Below, piece by piece: positions 1,270 through 9,511 of a stretch of 64,000 nt of DNA; position 1 is the first letter of the stretch; the number at the start of each line of letters is the position of its first letter. The notes beneath the pieces are model-generated. The model searched no databases. It saw only the letters and a list, made by a program, of their open reading frames with translations, and had not been told where the DNA came from. A program made the translations under genes and the position numbers. This DNA is from Giesbergeria anulus (GTDB taxonomy: Bacteria > Pseudomonadota > Gammaproteobacteria > Burkholderiales > Burkholderiaceae_C). The DNA is taken from the NCBI RefSeq assembly GCF_900111115.1, contig NZ_FOGD01000004.1, forward strand, positions 124,001 through 188,000, in the 5' to 3' direction.

Positions 1270-2595
1270 CTATCGGGCTACGGGGGCATTGCTGGTGGGG
1301 GTCTGGAAAAAACAGTCCGGTAGGCTCAAGGTGGCGTGGGCCACATCCACCAGCCGCCGGTTGTGGTCCATGGACGCTTTTTGCAACGCTCGGTAAGCCA
1401 CTTCCTCGCTCAGGCCCAGCCGCGACATCAAAGCACCCTTGGCGCGTTCAATCACCTTGCGTTCCTGCATGGCCCGCCGGGCAGTATCGAGTTCCAACTC
1501 CATCCCTGCCAAGCGCTCGGACTGTGTGTGTACCAACTCCATCAGCCCAGACACGGTACTGGCCTCCATGCCGGTGCCTTGGTCTTGGGTTGCTTCACCG
1601 CGCAGGGGCAGCACCGGGGCAGTGCCGGGCCGGACTGTCGGGTCAAAAAAGCGCTGCACGGCATGGGTATGAGGCGGCGGGTTGTCGCGCAGCCGCCGCA
1701 ACAAGCCTTCCGAGTCAAGCAGGTCTTGTTCAGCCACAGCAATCAAGCGGGCGCAGGTTTGGCGCAAGCATTGCACCAATGCCTCTTGCAGTTGCCACAG
1801 CCCAGTGATGCGCTCGCTACAGACCTCAAACCAAGCCTCGCTCAGACTTTGTTCTAAGGGGCCACCGTGCCGGGCGGTGCAGAGCGTGCGCCGCAGCCGC
1901 TCCAACAGCACCAGTTGCGGGGTCAACTGGCTGTGTTGCCACTGGGCGCGCAACGGTGGTTCAGCAAATTCTTCAAACACTTGCAAGCTGCGCTCTTGGG
2001 CATCAATCAAGTGCGTGATGCGCAACTGCTGTGCTTCGCTACAACTGCCGGAGGCAAACAATTGCGCTCCCACGGCCCGCTCTTGTCCTGCCGCCTCTTT
2101 GCCCTGCACCAGATGGAAAAAGCCCACCAGCAAACGCGAAATATCGGGGTGCAGGTGGGTATCGGCCACCTCAAAGGTTAGCTCTACCAGCCCGGCAATC
2201 ACGCGGCTGAACGCCGCCACGGCATCATGGGCCGTGAGGGTGCGTTGCGCCATCTGCGGGCGCAGCTCTTCCAGCATATCCAAGTCCAACAGCACCCATG
2301 CCATGAGCGAGAGCATCTGGGCTGAAGCCCCGTTGGCGGGCACCTGCTGCGCACCACACAGGGCTTGCAACGTGGCGGTGATGGGGCCAATGGCCTGTGC
2401 CGCTTCTTGGCGCACGCTGGCAAAGCGCTCGCCGCCCGAGGCCAGATAGATACTGGTGGCCCCGCGTTCGTGTTGCAGGGCATGGATCAGTTGCCCGATC
2501 ACATCGGCCAGTGCGATGCGCTGGGCCAGATGCTCCAGCGCTTCGCGCTCCAGTTGCCGGGCGCGTAGAACAAGATCAGAAACAGACTGTTGCAT
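1270..2595 (-). CDS. nasR: NIT-ANTAR nitrate-responsive antiterminator protein (NasR-like), 441 aa
   Basis: The N-terminal two thirds match a NIT nitrate/nitrite-sensing helical domain (LIHALQHERGATSIYLAS near residues 36-55). The C-terminus is an ANTAR RNA-binding domain (about 370-430, with VIERAKGALMSRLGLSEE and AYRALQKASMD). NasR of Klebsiella has this architecture and on sensing nitrate lets RNA polymerase read through leader terminators. Here the gene is the last of the nirC-kinase-SUMT-nirBD series and follows nirD by 36 bases, so it may control its own operon. The leader of nirB carries the RNA motif such proteins recognise (5619-5670). Confidence 0.88.
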   Translation of the reverse strand: MQQSVSDLVLRARQLEREALEHLAQRIALADVIGQLIHALQHERGATSIYLASGGERFASVRQEAAQAIGPITATLQALCGAQQVPANGASAQMLSLMAWVLLDLDMLEELRPQMAQRTLTAHDAVAAFSRVIAGLVELTFEVADTHLHPDISRLLVGFFHLVQGKEAAGQERAVGAQLFASGSCSEAQQLRITHLIDAQERSLQVFEEFAEPPLRAQWQHSQLTPQLVLLERLRRTLCTARHGGPLEQSLSEAWFEVCSERITGLWQLQEALVQCLRQTCARLIAVAEQDLLDSEGLLRRLRDNPPPHTHAVQRFFDPTVRPGTAPVLPLRGEATQDQGTGMEASTVSGLMELVHTQSERLAGMELELDTARRAMQERKVIERAKGALMSRLGLSEEVAYRALQKASMDHNRRLVDVAHATLSLPDCFFQTPTSNAPVAR

Positions 2596-2631: not shown

Positions 2632-2979
2632 TTAGCTGGCCTGCACCAGCACTTGGCCGCCCTCGGTACGCACGGGGTAGGTGCATACCGATTGCTGTGG
2701 GGCTTCTAGGCATTCACCAGTGTGCAGATCAAAGTGCTGTTTGTACAGCGGCGAGGCCACCACCAAGCGATCTCCCAGATTGCCTATCAGCCCGCGCGCC
2801 AGCACGCTAGCCTGCGAACGGGGGTCGATGTTATTGAGCGCAAACCATTGCCCGGTGCCCGTCCGAAAGATGGCAATGTGGTGCTGACCAACCAAGGCGC
2901 AAACGCCGGTGTTGGGCAGAATATCCTGCACGGCGCACACAGCCGTCCAGTGGGGGGTTGCAGCGGTAGGGGTAGTCAT
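2632..2979 (-). CDS. nirD: Nitrite reductase (NADH) small subunit NirD, 115 aa
   Basis: NirD is the Rieske-fold partner of assimilatory nitrite reductase. The start MTTPTAATP was chosen over a longer frame reaching 3171, which would run back into nirB and add non-homologous sequence. Recognisable family blocks include ALVGQHHIAIFRTG, FALNNIDP and SPLYKQHFDLHTG. As in other NirD proteins, the Cys/His ligands of true Rieske clusters are absent. It lies 26 bases after nirB in the same operon. Confidence 0.93.
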   Translation of the reverse strand: MTTPTAATPHWTAVCAVQDILPNTGVCALVGQHHIAIFRTGTGQWFALNNIDPRSQASVLARGLIGNLGDRLVVASPLYKQHFDLHTGECLEAPQQSVCTYPVRTEGGQVLVQAS

Positions 2980-3005
2980 GGTCTCAATCCTTGAGGGCAA
3001 AGGGC

Positions 3006-5531
3006 TTAGGCTGGAATGCTGGCCAGGGCGGTGCGCTCTTGTGGGCGGGCGGGCCGAATTTGCCCCCGCTCTTGCACAAAGATGATCTGTTCGTCCGGCT
3101 GCGCACTGTTGACAAAGGAGCGAAAGCGCTGGCGCACGGCGGGCGTGGTCACGGCGGTTTTCCATTCGCACTGGTAGGTATCGACCACCTGCTGCATTTG
3201 GGCTTCTAATTCTGCGGCAATGCCCAGCGAGTCACGGATCAACACGTCTTTCAGGTAATCCAAACCACCTTGGAGGTTGTCGCGCCACGTGCTGGTGCGT
3301 TGCAGCCGGTCGGCAGTGCGCACATAGAACATCAAAAAGCGGTCGATGAGTTGCACCAGCGTGTCTTTGTCCAAATCGCTGGCGATCAGTTCGGCGTGGC
3401 GTGGCTTCATGCCGCCATTGCCACAGACGTAGAGGTTCCAGCCCTTGTCGGTAGCAATCACCCCCACGTCTTTGCTTTGGGCTTCGGCGCATTCGCGAGT
3501 GCAGCCGGAAACGCCAAATTTGATCTTGTGTGGCGCACGCAAACCCTTGTAGCGGTTTTCTAGGGCAATCGCCATGCCCACCGAATCATCGACACCATAG
3601 CGGCACCAAGTGGAGCCAACGCAAGATTTGACGGTGCGCAAGGATTTGCCGTAGGCGTGGCCTGATTCAAAACCTGCCGCAATCAGCTCTTCCCAAATTA
3701 GCGGCAATTGTTCGACGCGCGCACCAAACAAATCCACCCGTTGGCCGCCAGTGATTTTGGTGTACAGGCCGTATTTTTGCGCCACCTGCCCCACGGCAAT
3801 CAAGCCTTGCGGCGTGACTTCACCGCCCGGCATCCGGGGCACCACCGAGTAGCTGCCATCTTTTTGGATGTTGCCCAAGTAGTAATCGTTGCTGTCTTGC
3901 AACGGGGCCAAATCCGGTTGCAGCACAAAATCGTTCCAGCAACTGGCCAGAATATTGGCTACGGTGGGTTTGCAAATATCGCAGCCCAGCCCTTGGCCGT
4001 GCCGGGCCAGCAGGGCATCAAAACTTTGGATGTGGCCGACGCGCACCAAGTGGTACAGCTCTTGGCGCGAGTGGGCAAAGTGCTCGCACAGGTGGTTATT
4101 CACCGCCAAACCGCGTTTGGCCATCTCCGCCTTCATCACCTGCGTCACCAGCGGGATGCAGCCGCCGCACGTGGCCCCGGCCTTGCAACACGCCTTGAGT
4201 TGGGCGATGGTGGTCGCGCCCTCGCCCACGGCTTGGGCAATCTGGCCCTTGCTGACGTTGTTGCAAGAGCAAATTTGTGCCGAGTCGGGCAGCATCTCTA
4301 CCCCCAAGCCGGGTTTGGCTTGGCCCTCACTGGAGGGCAAAATCAAGAATTCTGGGTGGCTGGGCAAGGCAATGCCATTGAGCGCCATTTGCAGCAGGGT
4401 GCCGTATTCGACAGCATCGCCCACCAACACTGCGCCCAACAACGTGCGGCCATCGGCGCTGGTAACGATCTTTTTATAGACCTGTTGGCGCTCGTCAATG
4501 TATTGGTAGCTGCGGCAGCCCGGCGTCTTACCGTGGGCATCGCCAATGCTAGCGACATCCACCCCCAGCAGTTTGAGTTTGGTGCTCATATCGGCCCCAG
4601 CAAAGGCGGCGCTGGTATCGCCTGCCAAATGCTTGGCCGCCACGCGGGCCATCTCGTAACCGGGGGCCACCAAGCCGAAGGTTTGGTCGTTCCAAGCGGC
4701 ACATTCGCCAATGGCATAGATGTCCGGGTCGTTGGTGCGGCACTGTGGGTCGATAGCGATGCCACCGCGTGCGCCCACAGCCAGCAGGCTTTGGCGGGCC
4801 AACTCATCACGCGGGCGAATGCCTGCCGAGAACACAATCATGTCGGTTTCTAGCCAAGTGCCATCGGCAAACACCATGCGGTGGCGGGCGCTGGCCCCAT
4901 CGGTGATTTCTACCGTGTTGCGCCCCAGATGCACCTGTACGCCCAGCGCCTCGATTTTCTCGCGCAGGATGCGTGCGCCACCTTCGTCCATTTGCACCGC
5001 CATCAGACGGGGCGAGAACTCCACCACATGGGTTTGCAGGCCCAAATCGCGCAGGGCTTTGGCGCATTCCAGCCCCAGCAGCCCGCCCCCCACTACCACG
5101 CCGCTGCGTGCGCGTGCTCCGGCGGCCTGCATGGCTTGCAGGTCTTCAATGGTGCGGTACACAAAACAGCCTGCCCGGTCGCGCCCCGGCACCGCTGGCA
5201 CAAAGGGGTAAGAGCCGGTGGCTAGCACGAGCTTGTCGTAGGGCAGCACCTCTCCGGTGGCGGTGGTCACAGTGTGGGCGATGCGGTCAATAGCCATAGC
5301 CTGTGCCGCCAGACGCAACTCGATGCCGGTGCGCTCAAAAAAACCGGGGGCCACCAAGGACAGGTCTTGGGCCGACTTGCCTGCAAAAAACTCTGACAGA
5401 TGCACCCGGTCATAGGCGGGGCGCACTTCCTCACCCAACACCGTGACATGGGCCTGTGTCAGGCCCCGTTCGGCCAGACTTTCCAGAAACTGGTGGCCCA
5501 CCATGCCGTGACCCACAACAACGATTTTCAT
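3006..5531 (-). CDS. nirB: Nitrite reductase (NADH) large subunit NirB, 841 aa
   Basis: Cytoplasmic siroheme enzyme reducing nitrite to ammonium with NADH. In order: a FAD/NAD oxidoreductase domain (start MKIVVVGHGMVGHQF; GGGLLGLECAKAL for NAD), a BFD-like [2Fe-2S] segment (ICSCNNVSKGQI, then CCKAGATCGGC), and the siroheme/[4Fe-4S] domain (CVGSTWCRYG; GVSGCTRECAEAQ). Full length for the family. The start at 5531 is fixed by AGGAG seven bases upstream; a longer frame to 5642 is leader sequence. The 219-base gap before it holds an ANTAR-type RNA motif and a second stem-loop. Confidence 0.97.
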   Translation of the reverse strand: MKIVVVGHGMVGHQFLESLAERGLTQAHVTVLGEEVRPAYDRVHLSEFFAGKSAQDLSLVAPGFFERTGIELRLAAQAMAIDRIAHTVTTATGEVLPYDKLVLATGSYPFVPAVPGRDRAGCFVYRTIEDLQAMQAAGARARSGVVVGGGLLGLECAKALRDLGLQTHVVEFSPRLMAVQMDEGGARILREKIEALGVQVHLGRNTVEITDGASARHRMVFADGTWLETDMIVFSAGIRPRDELARQSLLAVGARGGIAIDPQCRTNDPDIYAIGECAAWNDQTFGLVAPGYEMARVAAKHLAGDTSAAFAGADMSTKLKLLGVDVASIGDAHGKTPGCRSYQYIDERQQVYKKIVTSADGRTLLGAVLVGDAVEYGTLLQMALNGIALPSHPEFLILPSSEGQAKPGLGVEMLPDSAQICSCNNVSKGQIAQAVGEGATTIAQLKACCKAGATCGGCIPLVTQVMKAEMAKRGLAVNNHLCEHFAHSRQELYHLVRVGHIQSFDALLARHGQGLGCDICKPTVANILASCWNDFVLQPDLAPLQDSNDYYLGNIQKDGSYSVVPRMPGGEVTPQGLIAVGQVAQKYGLYTKITGGQRVDLFGARVEQLPLIWEELIAAGFESGHAYGKSLRTVKSCVGSTWCRYGVDDSVGMAIALENRYKGLRAPHKIKFGVSGCTRECAEAQSKDVGVIATDKGWNLYVCGNGGMKPRHAELIASDLDKDTLVQLIDRFLMFYVRTADRLQRTSTWRDNLQGGLDYLKDVLIRDSLGIAAELEAQMQQVVDTYQCEWKTAVTTPAVRQRFRSFVNSAQPDEQIIFVQERGQIRPARPQERTALASIPA

Positions 5532-5575
5532 AAGGTACTCCTGCGACGGTAAAGACTGCAACCCATAGGGGTGAG

Positions 5576-5617
5576 ACCGGCCTGATCCCCTGTACAGCGC
5601 ACAGTGAAGGGGCCGGT
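5576..5617 (-). promoter_or_regulatory. GC-rich stem-loop in the nirB leader, 3' of the ANTAR motif
   Basis: Transcribed on the minus strand, ACCGGCC (5617-5611) pairs with GGCCGGT (5582-5576). An inner CCCC/GGGG pairing is also possible. It begins two bases after the second hexaloop stem. There is no U tract after it, so it is not a standard intrinsic terminator; it could pause polymerase, load Rho-linked control or shape the ribosome-binding region 34 bases further on. Confidence 0.55.
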
Positions 5618-5618
5618 A

Positions 5619-5670
5619 TCCGCCGTCGTTAGCGGAGACCATGTGCTTTACGCAAGCGCCAATGCCTGCG
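5619..5670 (-). ncRNA. Dual-hexaloop ANTAR-type RNA motif in the nirB leader
   Basis: Read on the minus strand, two stems with six-base loops lie 14 bases apart. P1 (5670-5651) is CGCAGGC-ATTGGC-GCTTGCG, seven pairs with one G-U. P2 (5636-5619) is TCCGCT-AACGAC-GGCGGA, six pairs with a closing U-G. Both loops have A at position 1 and G at position 4, the pair of loop residues that characterises the RNA targets of ANTAR antiterminators. The presumed partner is the NIT-ANTAR protein at 1270-2595 in the same operon. Structure is read directly; binding is inferred. Confidence 0.8.
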
Positions 5671-5750
5671 GAAACACAAGCTTTTAAAGCAATATGCGTG
5701 CCTGCAATGCAGGTAGCATCAGATCGTGCAAATGCACCAGCATGGTGCCC

Positions 5751-6548
5751 TCAGTGGGCGTAGGTGCCGGTGGCTGGGTGCAGGCTGGTCGAGGAGGCAG
5801 CCAACCCCTGCAATACATCCCCCACCACGATGATGCTGGGGCTGCCCAGTCCTGTGTCTGCAATGGTGTGGTGCAAGTGCTCTAGGGTGGTCAGGGCGTG
5901 GCGTTGCTGCACCAGACTGGCGTTTTGGATGATGGCTACCGGGGTCTCAGCGGGCAACCCGGTCAGCAGTTCTTGTTGGATATGCGCTGCACCGCTGATG
6001 CCCATGTAAATCACCAGCGTCAGGCGGGCGCTGTGTGCGGTGGCTGCCAGTTGACGCCAGTCGGTACCGCTGTCGCCGGGTTTGGCGTGGCCCGTCACCA
6101 GCACCACGCCGTGGGCATATTCGCGGTGCGTGAGCGGCACACCCAAAGCGGTGGTGGCAGCCAGCCCAGCGGTGATGCCGTTGATCACTTGCACCTCTAC
6201 GCCCGCAGCGCGCAGGTGCTCTACCTCTTCGCCGCCCCGGCCAAAGATAAACGGGTCGCCCCCCTTGAGGCGCACCACCCGTTCGCCCTCTTGCACCGCC
6301 ATGAGCATCAGTTTTTCGATAAAGGTTTGCGGTGTGCTTTGGCAGCCACCACGTTTGCCCACATACACGACGCGGGCGGTAGGGGCAGCATAGGCGACGA
6401 TGGCATCGCTGACCAGATCATCCACCAGCAACACGGTGGCGGCTTGAATGGCTTTGAGGGCCTTGAGGGTGAGCAGTTCTGGATCACCGGGGCCAGCCCC
6501 CACCAAAGTGCAGGTGCCGGGAATGCGCGGGGAGCAAGGGTGTTTCAT
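5751..6548 (-). CDS. cobA: Uroporphyrinogen-III C-methyltransferase (SUMT), 265 aa
   Basis: Transfers two methyl groups from SAM to uroporphyrinogen III, giving precorrin-2, the precursor of the siroheme needed by NirB. Family motifs: LVGAGPGDPELLTLKA near the N-terminus, VRLKGGDPFIFGRGGEE around residue 93-110, and GITAGLAATTALGVPLTHR. It lacks the CysG dehydrogenase/chelatase half, so precorrin-2 must be finished by another enzyme not in this window. It sits between the kinase/phosphatase gene and nirB. In nitrite clusters this gene is sometimes called nirE. Confidence 0.95.
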   Translation of the reverse strand: MKHPCSPRIPGTCTLVGAGPGDPELLTLKALKAIQAATVLLVDDLVSDAIVAYAAPTARVVYVGKRGGCQSTPQTFIEKLMLMAVQEGERVVRLKGGDPFIFGRGGEEVEHLRAAGVEVQVINGITAGLAATTALGVPLTHREYAHGVVLVTGHAKPGDSGTDWRQLAATAHSARLTLVIYMGISGAAHIQQELLTGLPAETPVAIIQNASLVQQRHALTTLEHLHHTIADTGLGSPSIIVVGDVLQGLAASSTSLHPATGTYAH

Positions 6549-6569: not shown

Positions 6570-8309
6570 TTAGGCACGGGTGGCCTGTAGGGCCAGTAAC
6601 ACCAGCATGGCCCATGCCAGCAGGCAAGACAGGGTTTGCCAAAACAGCAAGGGGTTGCGTTCGATCAGTGGGGTGGTGCGGTGCTGCTGGTAGCGCAGGC
6701 CCGGCGTGCGCAGGTCATGCACCAGTTCTGAGGGCACCTCTTGCCGTTGCTGGGCCTGTGGGTGCAGCGCCCGGCGCAGCACGGCATCGAGCCACAGCGG
6801 CAGGTCGGGCCGACGGGTGCGCAGCCCGATGTAGCGCAGCCGGTGCAAGTCTGCCGGTTGCCGCAGTTGCGTGACCTGCAAACCATAGGGCAAATGGCCA
6901 GTCAGCATTTGGTAGGTGATAACGGCCAGCGAGAACAATTCTGACCGGGGGCTGCCCATGCCACCGACAAAGTATTCTGGGGCGGTGTATTGCAGCGAGC
7001 CTAGCAGCGCTTGCGGCTGGGCTTGGTCGGTGCCTTCAGTCAGGCCCGCCACATGGGTAGCCCCCAAATCAATGATCTTGGCAGTGCCGTGGCAGTCGAT
7101 CATGATGTTTTCGGGACGCAGGTCTTGGTGCAGCATTTCTTTGCGGTGCAAGGCTTGCAAGCCTTGGGCCACTTGCTCAATGATCTGGCGCACGCTATTG
7201 AGATCGGGCTGTGGGTGGTCAATCATCCACTGCGCCAGCGTTTGCCCTTCTACATATTCCAGTGCCACATACAGGTGCGTGCGCGGGCCGTCGTGGGCCG
7301 CTGCCTTGACCACATACGGGCTGTCAATGCGCCGGGCAATCCATTCTTCGAGCAGAAAGCGATCCAGATAGGCCGGGTCGGCCTGCAAATCCACTGAAGG
7401 GGTTTTGAGCACCACCTGCTGCCCGCTGGCCTCGTCCACCGCCAAATAAAGGTGGCTGCGCGCACTGTGCTGGAGCGTGCGCACCACGGTGTAGCCGTCT
7501 AGGCGGCTGCGCCGGGGCAGTGCTGCCGGGGGCAACGCCAGCCCTTCGCGCCCGGTGGGCAGGGGGCCAGCATCGGGCAAAGCATCAATGCGCACCAGCT
7601 GCACGGTCAGGTTGTCGTCGCTGCCGCGCTCCAATGCCGTGGCGATCAGGGCAGCGGCACAGCCATCCAAGTCATCACCGTGCTGTGCCAGTGTTTCTTG
7701 GATGGTGGCGGCATCTAGGTATTCGTAGGCACCATCGGTAGCCAAGAGATAGACCTCGCCCACCGCCAGCGGCCAGCAGCAGTAGTCGATATCCACCGTA
7801 GCACTGGCCCCCAGAGCGCGGCCCAAGTAGCTTTCAGAGCTGGACAGCACCACGCGGTGATCTTGCGTCAGTTGCTCTAGGCTCTGGGGGTGCAGGCGGT
7901 AAATGCGGGCATCGCCTACGTGCAGCAAATGGCCTTCACGGCCCTTGAGAATCAGGGCGCTGAAGGTACAAACGTAGCCGCGGTCTCGGTCAAAGCGGGC
8001 GCTGCTGCGCTGCGATTGTGCGTGCAACCAAGAGTTACCTGCTTGCAGCACCCGCTGTGCAGCGCGGCGCACTGGCCACGCCTCACAGGTGCAGTAGTAG
8101 TCGTCCAGAAAGCAACGCACCGCCGCCGCACTGGCGATTTGGCTCACGCTGCTGCTGCTGATGCCATCGGCCAGCGCCAGTGCAATGCCCCGGCTGGCCA
8201 GCAGCGGGCCTTGGGGCAGCATGGCCCCATGAAAGTCCTGCTGCACAGACTTGCGCCCGGCTTGGGCGTGTTGGCCCAGCGTCACGCGCAGGCTGGTGGT
8301 GCTGCTCAT
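6570..8309 (-). CDS. PP2C phosphatase-Ser/Thr kinase fusion with C-terminal membrane anchor, 579 aa
   Basis: Residues about 1-245 form a PP2C-type phosphatase (ALADGISSSSVSQ, LLHVGDARIYRL, LLATDGAYEYL, GSDDNLTVQLVRI). Residues about 265-530 form a Hanks-type kinase: VVLKTP carries the ATP lysine, HQDLRPENIMID is the catalytic loop (HRD changed to HQD), and IIDLGATHV replaces DFG. The Gly-rich loop is poorly conserved. A hydrophobic helix near 550-575 (LLFWQTLSCLLAWAMLVLLALQ) would anchor it. One polypeptide could add and remove the same phosphate. It lies between nirC and SUMT, so a nitrogen-related target such as NirC is plausible but unproven. Confidence 0.9.
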   Translation of the reverse strand: MSSTTSLRVTLGQHAQAGRKSVQQDFHGAMLPQGPLLASRGIALALADGISSSSVSQIASAAAVRCFLDDYYCTCEAWPVRRAAQRVLQAGNSWLHAQSQRSSARFDRDRGYVCTFSALILKGREGHLLHVGDARIYRLHPQSLEQLTQDHRVVLSSSESYLGRALGASATVDIDYCCWPLAVGEVYLLATDGAYEYLDAATIQETLAQHGDDLDGCAAALIATALERGSDDNLTVQLVRIDALPDAGPLPTGREGLALPPAALPRRSRLDGYTVVRTLQHSARSHLYLAVDEASGQQVVLKTPSVDLQADPAYLDRFLLEEWIARRIDSPYVVKAAAHDGPRTHLYVALEYVEGQTLAQWMIDHPQPDLNSVRQIIEQVAQGLQALHRKEMLHQDLRPENIMIDCHGTAKIIDLGATHVAGLTEGTDQAQPQALLGSLQYTAPEYFVGGMGSPRSELFSLAVITYQMLTGHLPYGLQVTQLRQPADLHRLRYIGLRTRRPDLPLWLDAVLRRALHPQAQQRQEVPSELVHDLRTPGLRYQQHRTTPLIERNPLLFWQTLSCLLAWAMLVLLALQATRA

Positions 8310-8345: not shown

Positions 8346-9158
8346 TCAGGCCACCATGCGCTTAGGGGCCGTTTTGTAGTGGGTGGAGTACAGCGTGGCC
8401 CCGACAAAGGTCAGGCCGCCCACCAAATTGCCCAACACGGTGGGGATTTCGTTCCAGATCAGGTAATCCATGAATGTGAAATTGCCGCCCAGCATCAGCC
8501 CCGTAGGAAACAAAAACATATTGACGATGGAGTGCTCAAAGCCCATATAGAAGAACACCAAAATCGGCATCCACATGCCAATCACCTTGCCCGACACCGA
8601 GGTGGACATCATGGCTGCCACCACGCCGGTAGAGACCATCCAGTTGCACATCACGCCCCGGATAAACAGCGTCAGCATCCCGGCAGCACCGTGGGCGGCA
8701 TAGCCTACCGTGCGGCCCTCCCCAATCGTGCCCAGCTTTTGCCCGATGGCGTTAGGGGCCTCGGTAAAGCCAAAGGTAAAGATGATCGACATGAACAAGG
8801 CCACCGTCAGCGCCCCAGCAAAATTGCCCACAAACACCAATGACCAGTTGCGCATCACGCCGCCCCAAGTCGCGCCCGGACGCCGGTCAAACACCGCCAG
8901 CGGAGCCAAGGTAAACACGCCGGTGAGCAAATCGAAGCCCAGCAGGTAGAGCATGCAAAAGCCCACCGGAAACAGCAATGCCCCAATCAAAGGGTTGCCG
9001 GTGTTAACGGTGACGCTGACGGCAAACGCTGCGGCCAGCGCCAAAATGGCACCGGCCATGTAGGAGCGGATCAGGGTGTCGCGGGTGGACATCAGCAGTT
9101 TGGATTCGCCAGCATCGACCATTTTGGTGACGAATTCGGCAGGAGCAAGATAGGCCAT
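8346..9158 (-). CDS. nirC: Formate/nitrite transporter (FNT) family channel, NirC-like, 270 aa
   Basis: A six-helix inner-membrane channel of the FocA/NirC family, expected to bring nitrite to NirBD. Family signatures are visible: the N-terminal LAPAEFVTKMVDAGESK, the GNLVGG element near the C-terminus and GFEHSIVNMF. It is the first gene of the minus-strand operon. The ribosome-binding AAAGGAA precedes the start, and a terminator-like hairpin ends about 22 bases before the start codon (9181-9245), suggesting attenuation control. Confidence 0.92.
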   Translation of the reverse strand: MAYLAPAEFVTKMVDAGESKLLMSTRDTLIRSYMAGAILALAAAFAVSVTVNTGNPLIGALLFPVGFCMLYLLGFDLLTGVFTLAPLAVFDRRPGATWGGVMRNWSLVFVGNFAGALTVALFMSIIFTFGFTEAPNAIGQKLGTIGEGRTVGYAAHGAAGMLTLFIRGVMCNWMVSTGVVAAMMSTSVSGKVIGMWMPILVFFYMGFEHSIVNMFLFPTGLMLGGNFTFMDYLIWNEIPTVLGNLVGGLTFVGATLYSTHYKTAPKRMVA

Positions 9159-9180
9159 TACAGTTCCTTTGCAGGGTGAG

Positions 9181-9245
9181 GAAAAAACAAAAACGGCGTC
9201 ACCACACTGCCATCAGCTTGGGGCTGGGGCAGGGGGGACGCCGTT
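9181..9245 (-). terminator. Terminator-like attenuator in the nirC leader
   Basis: On the minus strand AACGGCGTC (9245-9237) pairs perfectly over nine bases with GACGCCGTT (9200-9192), and is followed at once by TTTGTTTTTT. The loop can form an inner CTGCC/GGCAG stem. Being inside the leader, about 22 bases before the nirC start codon, it would stop transcription of the whole nitrite operon unless overridden. Confidence 0.75.
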
Positions 9246-9511
9246 ATCCGTGTCATGGGGGTACACCTCACACCCCACGGTAACAAACCGTGAAGCGTGC
9301 TATCAAGCCATCGTCAGCTCAACATGCTGGCTGTATGCACATTCCGTGCCTGATTTTTGTGGTGGCTGTCTGCCCCAGAATGGGCCAGCGCAGTGCATCG
9401 GGGCGCGCGGACGCTGCGCTCTGGTGCAGCCTGATCTATTTTTGTGCTGCCAAGACGGGCAAGTCGTTGTACGCTCCAAGGCTAGAACAGCGTATTTTTT
9501 TGAGAATCCCC
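9246..9511. promoter_or_regulatory. Divergent trpD/nirC control region
   Basis: Together with the attenuator this is a 353-base gap between divergent genes. On the nirC (minus) side a hairpin CACGGT-TTGTT-ACCGTG (9292-9276) precedes the attenuator, and its 3' arm CCGTG can instead pair with a later CACGG. The pentamer CACGG occurs three times on that strand. AGCGCAG/CTGCGCT arms (9414-9420 and 9386-9392) form another dyad. I could not place an ANTAR A1/G4 hexaloop pair or a firm promoter for either gene. Confidence 0.45.

Follow-up and report, generated by a model that had tools for sequence, protein, structure and literature searches.

RNA targets of ANTAR proteins are recognised as two hairpins, P1 and P2, of at least three pairs each, with six-base loops that carry A at position 1 and G at position 4. 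As far as the accessible portions of the cited articles go, the structure of EutV on its RNA has the protein contacting G4 and not A1 (PMC8934654), and the C-G pair that closes the loop in the NasR SELEX consensus is a preference and not an absolute rule (PMC7496416). The linkers between the two hairpins measure 5-12 bases in the eut leaders of E. faecalis, and EutV lost most of its induction at a linker of 14 bases (PMC3369931, section 7). Overlap of P2 with an intrinsic terminator, the mark of the attenuating subclass, was found for about 30% of the hits that a genome-wide search of 2012 returned in ANTAR-encoding genomes, and is not needed for membership of the wider class (PMC3369931). The same search, in the sections available, lists nitrite reductase among the genes behind ANTAR RNAs and places some matches at ribosome-binding sites (PMC3369931, section 10), so that the kind of element treated here is already known.

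A hairpin pair in front of nirB

The window, that is, the whole 64-kb stretch of Giesbergeria anulus DNA that was analysed, carries on its minus strand an operon with the gene order nirC, PP2C-kinase fusion, SUMT, nirB, nirD and NIT-ANTAR. The features that matter most are the following.

8346-9158, minus strand: nirC, assigned by domain search
5651-5670 (read 5670-5651), minus strand: P1 hairpin of the nirB leader, seven pairs, loop ATTGGC at 5663-5658
5619-5636 (read 5636-5619), minus strand: P2 hairpin of the nirB leader, six pairs, loop AACGAC at 5630-5625, 5' arm and loop complementary to the ribosome-binding site of nirB
3006-5531, minus strand: nirB, downstream of the leader
2632-2991, minus strand: nirD, with a Rieske_2 domain
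1270-2595, minus strand: NIT-ANTAR gene, the proposed reader and last gene of the operon, NIT and ANTAR domains both above the Pfam cut-offs

The two hairpins lie 14 bases apart within the 219 bases that separate the SUMT gene (5751-6548) from the start of nirB (5531), and the comparisons given below make it very probable that they form an ANTAR target read by the operon's own NIT-ANTAR protein. Both hairpins have six-base loops on stems of more than three pairs, and both loops, ATTGGC and AACGAC, have A1 and G4. P1 is closed by C-G and P2 by U-G in this leader; across the family, P2 is closed by U-G in 39 of 39 leaders and P1 by U-G in 34 and C-G in 5. The linker of 14 bases lies outside the range of 5-12 in the E. 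faecalis eut leaders, where 14 impairs EutV, and P2 overlaps an intrinsic terminator at nirC, none having been found at nirB.

The two stems, their hexaloops and the spacing had been given exactly in the preliminary description, and were recovered when both strands of the window were searched for pairs of A1/G4 hexaloop hairpins separated by 3-20 bases. Two sites had stems of at least five pairs, and only the nirB-leader pair had both stems of at least six; the means in 30 first-order Markov resamples were 0.63 and 0.10 per window, respectively, both strands counted. Covariance models gave the same answer: one built from 7 family leaders scored the nirB leader at 74.4 bits (next best 15.1 in the window, 19.7 in the genome) and one built from 39 leaders scored it at 57.7 bits (next best in the genome 17.4), the nirB leader being included in both models. 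The covariance-model search with the ANTAR RNA family that had been proposed beforehand proved uninformative, Rfam giving no match at the P1/P2 site even at E up to 5.

The longest nirB frame (3006-5642, minus strand) opens at an ATG at 5642 inside the ANTAR linker; an automatic gene call could take this as the nirB start, so that the leader would be hidden. A gene for a PP2C phosphatase-protein kinase fusion (6570-8309, minus strand) lies between nirC and SUMT, and its homologues follow nirC in many of the fetched nir loci; this placement suggests phosphorylation control of nitrite transport or reduction.

A predicted promoter for the nirB leader

The element had first been described as lying inside the operon and not at its head. 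This is contradicted by two predicted sites just upstream of the hairpins.

5689-5703, minus strand: sigma-54 -24/-12 promoter AGGCACG-N4-TTGC, 10 of 11 consensus letters
5734-5748, minus strand: NtrC-type dyad GCACC-N5-GGTGC, in the SUMT-nirB gap upstream of the sigma-54 site

The consensus letters used here are those that we take to be the -24/-12 and NtrC-type forms. Since both sites precede the hairpins, the element would head its own nirBD transcript, with a predicted start at about 5677 and P1 beginning some 8 bases after it. A GGCA...TTGC block upstream of the hairpins was conserved already in the first family alignment. The best sigma-54 site reaches at least 9 of 11 letters in all 37 nirB upstream regions (36 plus the window), as against 13% of shuffles and none of 36 nirB coding stretches. 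Upstream of it, the exact dyad GCAC-N7-GTGC stands in 12 of 37 nirB leaders where shuffles lead one to expect 0.30, and a dyad with at most one mismatch in 33 of 37 (6.5 expected). A sigma-54 gene is present in the G. anulus genome, so that the -24/-12 site, the NtrC-type dyad and the sigma factor expected of an NtrC/sigma-54 leader are all found. Further, in the 18 leaders with NIT-ANTAR after nirD, the window included, the P1 loop falls at +12 to +16 and the P2 loop at +41 to +49 of the predicted start.

A second ANTAR-type leader at nirC

The preliminary description had placed the element before nirB, so that nirBD could be tuned apart from nirC, and had missed an ANTAR-type leader with a terminator in front of nirC, at the head of the operon.

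9337-9351, minus strand: sigma-54-like site AGGCACGGAATGTGC, 9 of 11 consensus letters
9301-9324, minus strand: nirC-leader P1, loop GACGAT, nine pairs, several of them G-U, at +11
9236-9249, minus strand: nirC-leader P2, loop AACGGC, four pairs
9180-9245, minus strand: intrinsic terminator overlapping P2, AACGGCGTC ... GACGCCGTT, then TTTGTTTTTT, -32.7 kcal/mol (script)

The stretch 9300-9159 folds better than its shuffles (z -3.85). The distance from one loop to the other is 70 bases, and a 13-pair hairpin (9269-9299) fills the gap, so that the ANTAR spacing rule may tolerate an inserted hairpin. In the fetched loci, the script finds a terminator in 47 of 63 regions upstream of nirC. Among 58 distinct regions of this kind, 27 combine site, P1, P2 and terminator, and in 38 a terminator overlaps a purine-1/G4 hairpin. 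In six of these 38 (L115, L144, L151, L153, L154 and L157) the hairpin taken for P2 resembles P1, L115 and L154 also holding a ggatAACGGCgtcc P2. All 13 fetched loci with nirC directly after nirD are among the 20 negatives. The distance between the P1 and P2 loops is 54-76 bases in most positives and 23-24 in others (compare L109, L142 and L184-L186). Judged by sequence features, the locus has two leaders, at nirB and at nirC, each with its own predicted promoter and ANTAR-type element, and the NIT-ANTAR protein probably controls both.

Output at nirB: ribosome-binding site or terminator

Two downstream features of the nirB leader bear on how binding of the hairpins could be turned into expression.

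5538-5549, minus strand: nirB ribosome-binding site with the P2-complementary block CCGTCGCAGGAG, one copy in the genome
5576-5617, minus strand: GC-rich hairpin ACCGGCC/GGCCGGT directly downstream of P2, lacking a T-run; ACCAGCC/GGCTGGT in L034

The ribosome-binding site lies 69 bases beyond P2, and CUCC of P2 can pair with its GGAG and CGACGG with its CCGUCG. The sequence CCGTCGCAGGA has 24 occurrences in the fetched loci (2.96 Mb, both strands counted, overlapping and partly redundant), each directly before a nirB-type start, and CCGTCGCAGGAG is common to 12 of 43 distinct leaders, whose middles span 53-147 bases and are 0.34-0.54 identical to that of the window. The minimum-energy fold of the nirB leader pairs P2 with the ribosome-binding site, and the helix has a predicted probability of 0.97 with 0 to 60 bases of nirB added, that of the P2 hairpin being near 0. 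Whatever nirB stretch is added, forcing P2 to form costs 4.0 to 5.8 kcal/mol and raises the predicted exposure of the Shine-Dalgarno sequence from 0.20 to 0.40-0.46. Permuting the six-base block lowers the mean cost of P2 from 3.7 to 1.3 kcal/mol.

Among the 12 block-bearing leaders with their own coding sequence, all 12 have a predicted helix probability of 0.5 or higher with no coding bases and of 0.90 or higher with 10, but with 30 or 60 coding bases the helix reaches 0.5 in only 6 and 5 of 12, and a gain in Shine-Dalgarno exposure above 0.05 is predicted in 6 and 5 of 12. Of the eleven leaders other than that of the window, 6 lose or weaken the helix at 30 bases and 7 at 60, and in the common context of the window 3 of 12 leaders have no rise in exposure. 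Tests of own against swapped pairing conflict (p 0.0016, 0.125 and 0.008), and all three values are optimistic owing to related sequences; the sole compensatory case, L174 (CGATGG/CCATCG), has a predicted fold probability of only 0.02. The modelled fold between P2 and the ribosome-binding site is thus firm for G. anulus and unsure for its relatives. Because the fold depends on coding context in relatives, our estimate for a translational output at nirB was lowered from about an even chance, and such an output is now put forward tentatively, as a modelled possibility somewhat below even. Sequestration of the ribosome-binding site as a family-wide mechanism was rejected; the block occurs in only 12 of 43 leaders.

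Several relatives (L108, L114, L116, L121, L127 and others) have a P2 5' arm complementary to GCGGAGGG or GCGGGGG 65-90 bases downstream, a possible refolding partner whose pairing is stronger in own than in swapped combinations (-14.13 vs -12.83 kcal/mol, p 0.0006). A downstream partner of this type is absent from the nirB leader of the window.

The same target and protein could act at nirB through transcription attenuation, with the GC-rich hairpin after P2, or Rho on the untranslated leader, ending the transcript unless NIT-ANTAR holds P2. All NasR, NasT and EutV targets characterised in the accessible portions of the literature act by antitermination (PMC7496416, PMC3369936, PMC12830290), the nirC leader of this very locus has a terminator, and the GC-rich hairpin changes in step in both arms in L034. 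Terminators overlapping P2 occur in some nirB leaders of the family: those of L137 and L143, and the nirB-like leaders L134, L135 and L136, in which P2 sits inside a long perfect terminator stem followed by T-runs. These last three have no NIT-ANTAR after nirD, and from their sequence are classical ANTAR attenuators before nirB-type genes. In the window, however, the GC-rich hairpin lacks a T-run, and neither a pattern scan nor a looser script found an intrinsic terminator after P2 in the nirB leader; the scan requires an uninterrupted stem and a loop of 3-8 and also misses the nirC terminator, so that its negative alone is weak. Nor are terminators after P2 clearly enriched in the nirB leaders (9 of 36 vs 17 of 108 shuffles). 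Attenuation at nirB is accordingly given close to an even chance.

Conservation among relatives and the putative reader

Whatever the output, assignment of the hairpins to the ANTAR targets was borne out by every comparative test run. Of 36 fetched nirB loci, 17 have NIT-ANTAR after nirD: 12 of the 29 selected by nirB similarity and 5 of the 7 selected by leader. Among the 29, L129 stops too soon to be judged. A strict A1/G4 scan misses relatives with G1 loops and was widened to purine-1. With purine-1/G4 loops, all 18 leaders that adjoin a NIT-ANTAR gene had both hairpins called, as did 12 of the 19 others, the calls being permissive and some of the 12 possibly due to chance. The comparison of related nirB leaders suggested at the outset shows that, in Comamonadaceae-type genomes with a nirD/NIT-ANTAR pair beside nirB, both hairpins are kept at fixed distances from the sigma-54 site. 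In a separate, named collection of 80 loci kept from one scan, 32 combine a NIT-ANTAR gene with an upstream nirB at 79% identity or more; all 32 have a sigma-54 site (at least 9/11), P1 and P2 by permissive criteria, with P1 at +12 to +17 and P2 at +44 to +51, or in three at +58 to +62. Of these leaders, 26 of 32 are distinct from one another and from the first set.

For the 39-leader set, hairpins were picked with a purine at position 1 and G at position 4 and then aligned with MAFFT; the alignment omits 4 of 43 distinct leaders (L111, with Ns, and L171-L173, with a longer linker). Position 4 is G in both loops of 39 of 39 leaders, and position 1 is A in 27 and G in 12 of the P1 loops and A in 35 and G in 4 of the P2 loops. 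The A1/G4 rule on which the preliminary description relied holds for G4 and relaxes at position 1 to A or G, and this constancy and looseness fit the contacts in the available account of the EutV-RNA structure (PMC8934654). Loss of the stems or of A1/G4 in relatives that keep nirB, which the preliminary description had named as evidence against itself, is seen in part: some relatives have G in place of A1, and a canonical P1 is missing from L110, where no NIT-ANTAR gene adjoins nirB. G4 is kept in all 39 aligned leaders.

The P1 stem shows 24 both-side cells against 12.1 in shuffled alignments (0 of 500 shuffles as high). Other measures are less clean: the number of pairs with a both-side change is 4 against 3.3 (165 of 500), three outer pairs fail to form in 13 to 18 of 37 leaders, and the covariation score of 0.138 is nearly matched, at 0.133, after a -3 column slide. 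P2 is invariant and thus offers no covariation test. The conserved palindrome TCCGCTAACGACGGCGGA is nearly invariant beyond what ANTAR loop recognition would need, as might be expected of a DNA operator for some protein. However, its position downstream of the predicted start is fixed, and it is always accompanied by a P1 whose stem covaries; the loops vary except at position 4 in P1 and positions 2, 4 and 5 in P2, where A2 and A5 are kept across the 39 leaders; and it co-occurs with NIT-ANTAR. An operator in place of an RNA element is therefore very improbable.

The 39-leader model matches in 24 of 299 family genomes, all 24 with an ANTAR domain (240 of 299 overall; p 0.004); for genomes outside the training alignment the co-occurrence is weak (p 0.17 for the 8 counted, a ninth, G185, being left out). 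A leader DNA search of 399 family genomes found 8, G. anulus included; these being too few, leaders were also gathered by way of nirB, of the protein and of covariance models. The model-2 search of 399 genomes of the order gave 4 matches at E of at most 0.01, three in the family (G. anulus included) and one outside it at 28.4 bits.

The last gene of the operon is a NasR-like NIT-ANTAR protein, as first supposed: the NIT and ANTAR domains are found, and the closest solved structure is NasR, 4AKK (E 8e-44 across both domains). By our own residue mapping, the RNA-binding R340 and N373 of NasR correspond to R379 and N412, both invariant in 16 homologues, and the nitrate-pocket E175/R176 to E172/R173; W362 and R366, both needed for RNA binding by NasR, are Y401 and Q405 here. 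The residue before Asn412, His or Gln, appears by eye to be linked to the loop letters. Compared with 59 relatives, the protein has a near full-length match in G028 only (39% identity), the other matches being to NIT regions within longer proteins or to the ANTAR region only. None of the other genomes of the genus that were compared has a near full-length match, and the cluster may be acquired or widely lost. A different ANTAR protein could in principle read a genuine target here, since the ANTAR matches of near relatives are mostly short frames of NasT size, and in L110 and L131 the element is present but no NIT-ANTAR gene follows nirD; yet the NIT-ANTAR gene is the sole ANTAR match in the 3.42-Mb G. 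anulus assembly, albeit one of 33 contigs, and another reader is highly unlikely. A short leader peptide (MVSANDGG...) is the least credible account of the conservation: a frame that runs into nirB begins with the ATG at 5642, and in L034 the same start is encoded in a different frame, but L036 has AAG, L038 has no ATG there, and third codon positions are conserved too.

Proposed mechanism

Under nitrogen limitation, sigma-54 and NtrC would drive a nirBD mRNA that starts with the hairpin pair. In the absence of nitrate, this leader would refold and the ribosome-binding site of nirB would be masked by pairing with P2; once nitrate is present, NIT-ANTAR would keep P1 and P2 in hairpin form and so free the site. 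At the nirC leader, the same protein would hold the P2 that excludes the intrinsic terminator, in the classical mode. The account as a whole, from the NtrC/sigma-54 nirBD leader and its NIT-ANTAR target to ribosome-site release at nirB and terminator exclusion at nirC, extends elements, promoter motifs, complementarity and gene linkage read from the DNA to presumed binding, nitrate response and translational output, and remains tentative, rather less than an even bet. That one nitrate-sensing ANTAR protein has two RNA outputs in one locus, terminator exclusion at nirC and activation of translation at nirB through P2 as a long-range lock on the ribosome-binding site, is a somewhat doubtful proposal.

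If true, an ANTAR target could activate translation from a distance, loop position 1 would be less constrained than position 4, in line with the EutV-RNA structure, and an environmental bacterial family would possess a compact one-component nitrate switch for nirBD and nirC. Searches that demand a terminator beside P2 would miss such leaders.

Comparison with known systems

The literature searched, which left most subscription papers out of reach, yielded no description of a NIT-ANTAR/nirBD system from this family, nor of an ANTAR protein that frees a remote ribosome-binding site, which is weak evidence that both are new. The comparisons that follow refer to the accessible portions of the cited articles. 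The locus resembles NasR and the nasF leader of Klebsiella in its one-component NIT-ANTAR nitrate sensor, its two A1/G4 hexaloop hairpins and its linkage to assimilation genes (PMC7496416, PMC3369936). Unlike there, the G. anulus targets precede nirB and, separately, nirC, with no intrinsic terminator found at nirB; P2 is closed by U-G and not by the C-G of the NasR SELEX consensus, and W362/R366 are replaced by Y/Q (PMC7496416).

The nalA leader of nirBD in Pseudomonas is likewise a sigma-54/NtrC-dependent nirBD leader with an ANTAR reader, but this reader is NasT with a separate sensor, NasS, acting by antitermination, and not a one-component NIT-ANTAR protein encoded after nirD (PMC12830290). 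The EutV/eut leaders share the dual hexaloops, several leaders per locus and a contacted G4 beside an A1 without contact, matching the A or G found here; they differ in their two-component control, in responding to ethanolamine, in a P2 that overlaps terminators at all four sites and in linkers of 5-12 bases (PMC3369931, PMC8934654). Finally, actinobacterial ANTAR RNAs at ribosome-binding sites are tied to translation, as is proposed for nirB; there, however, the ribosome-binding site lies within or next to the hairpins and binding represses, whereas here it lies 69 bases beyond P2 and binding should activate (PMC8164766).
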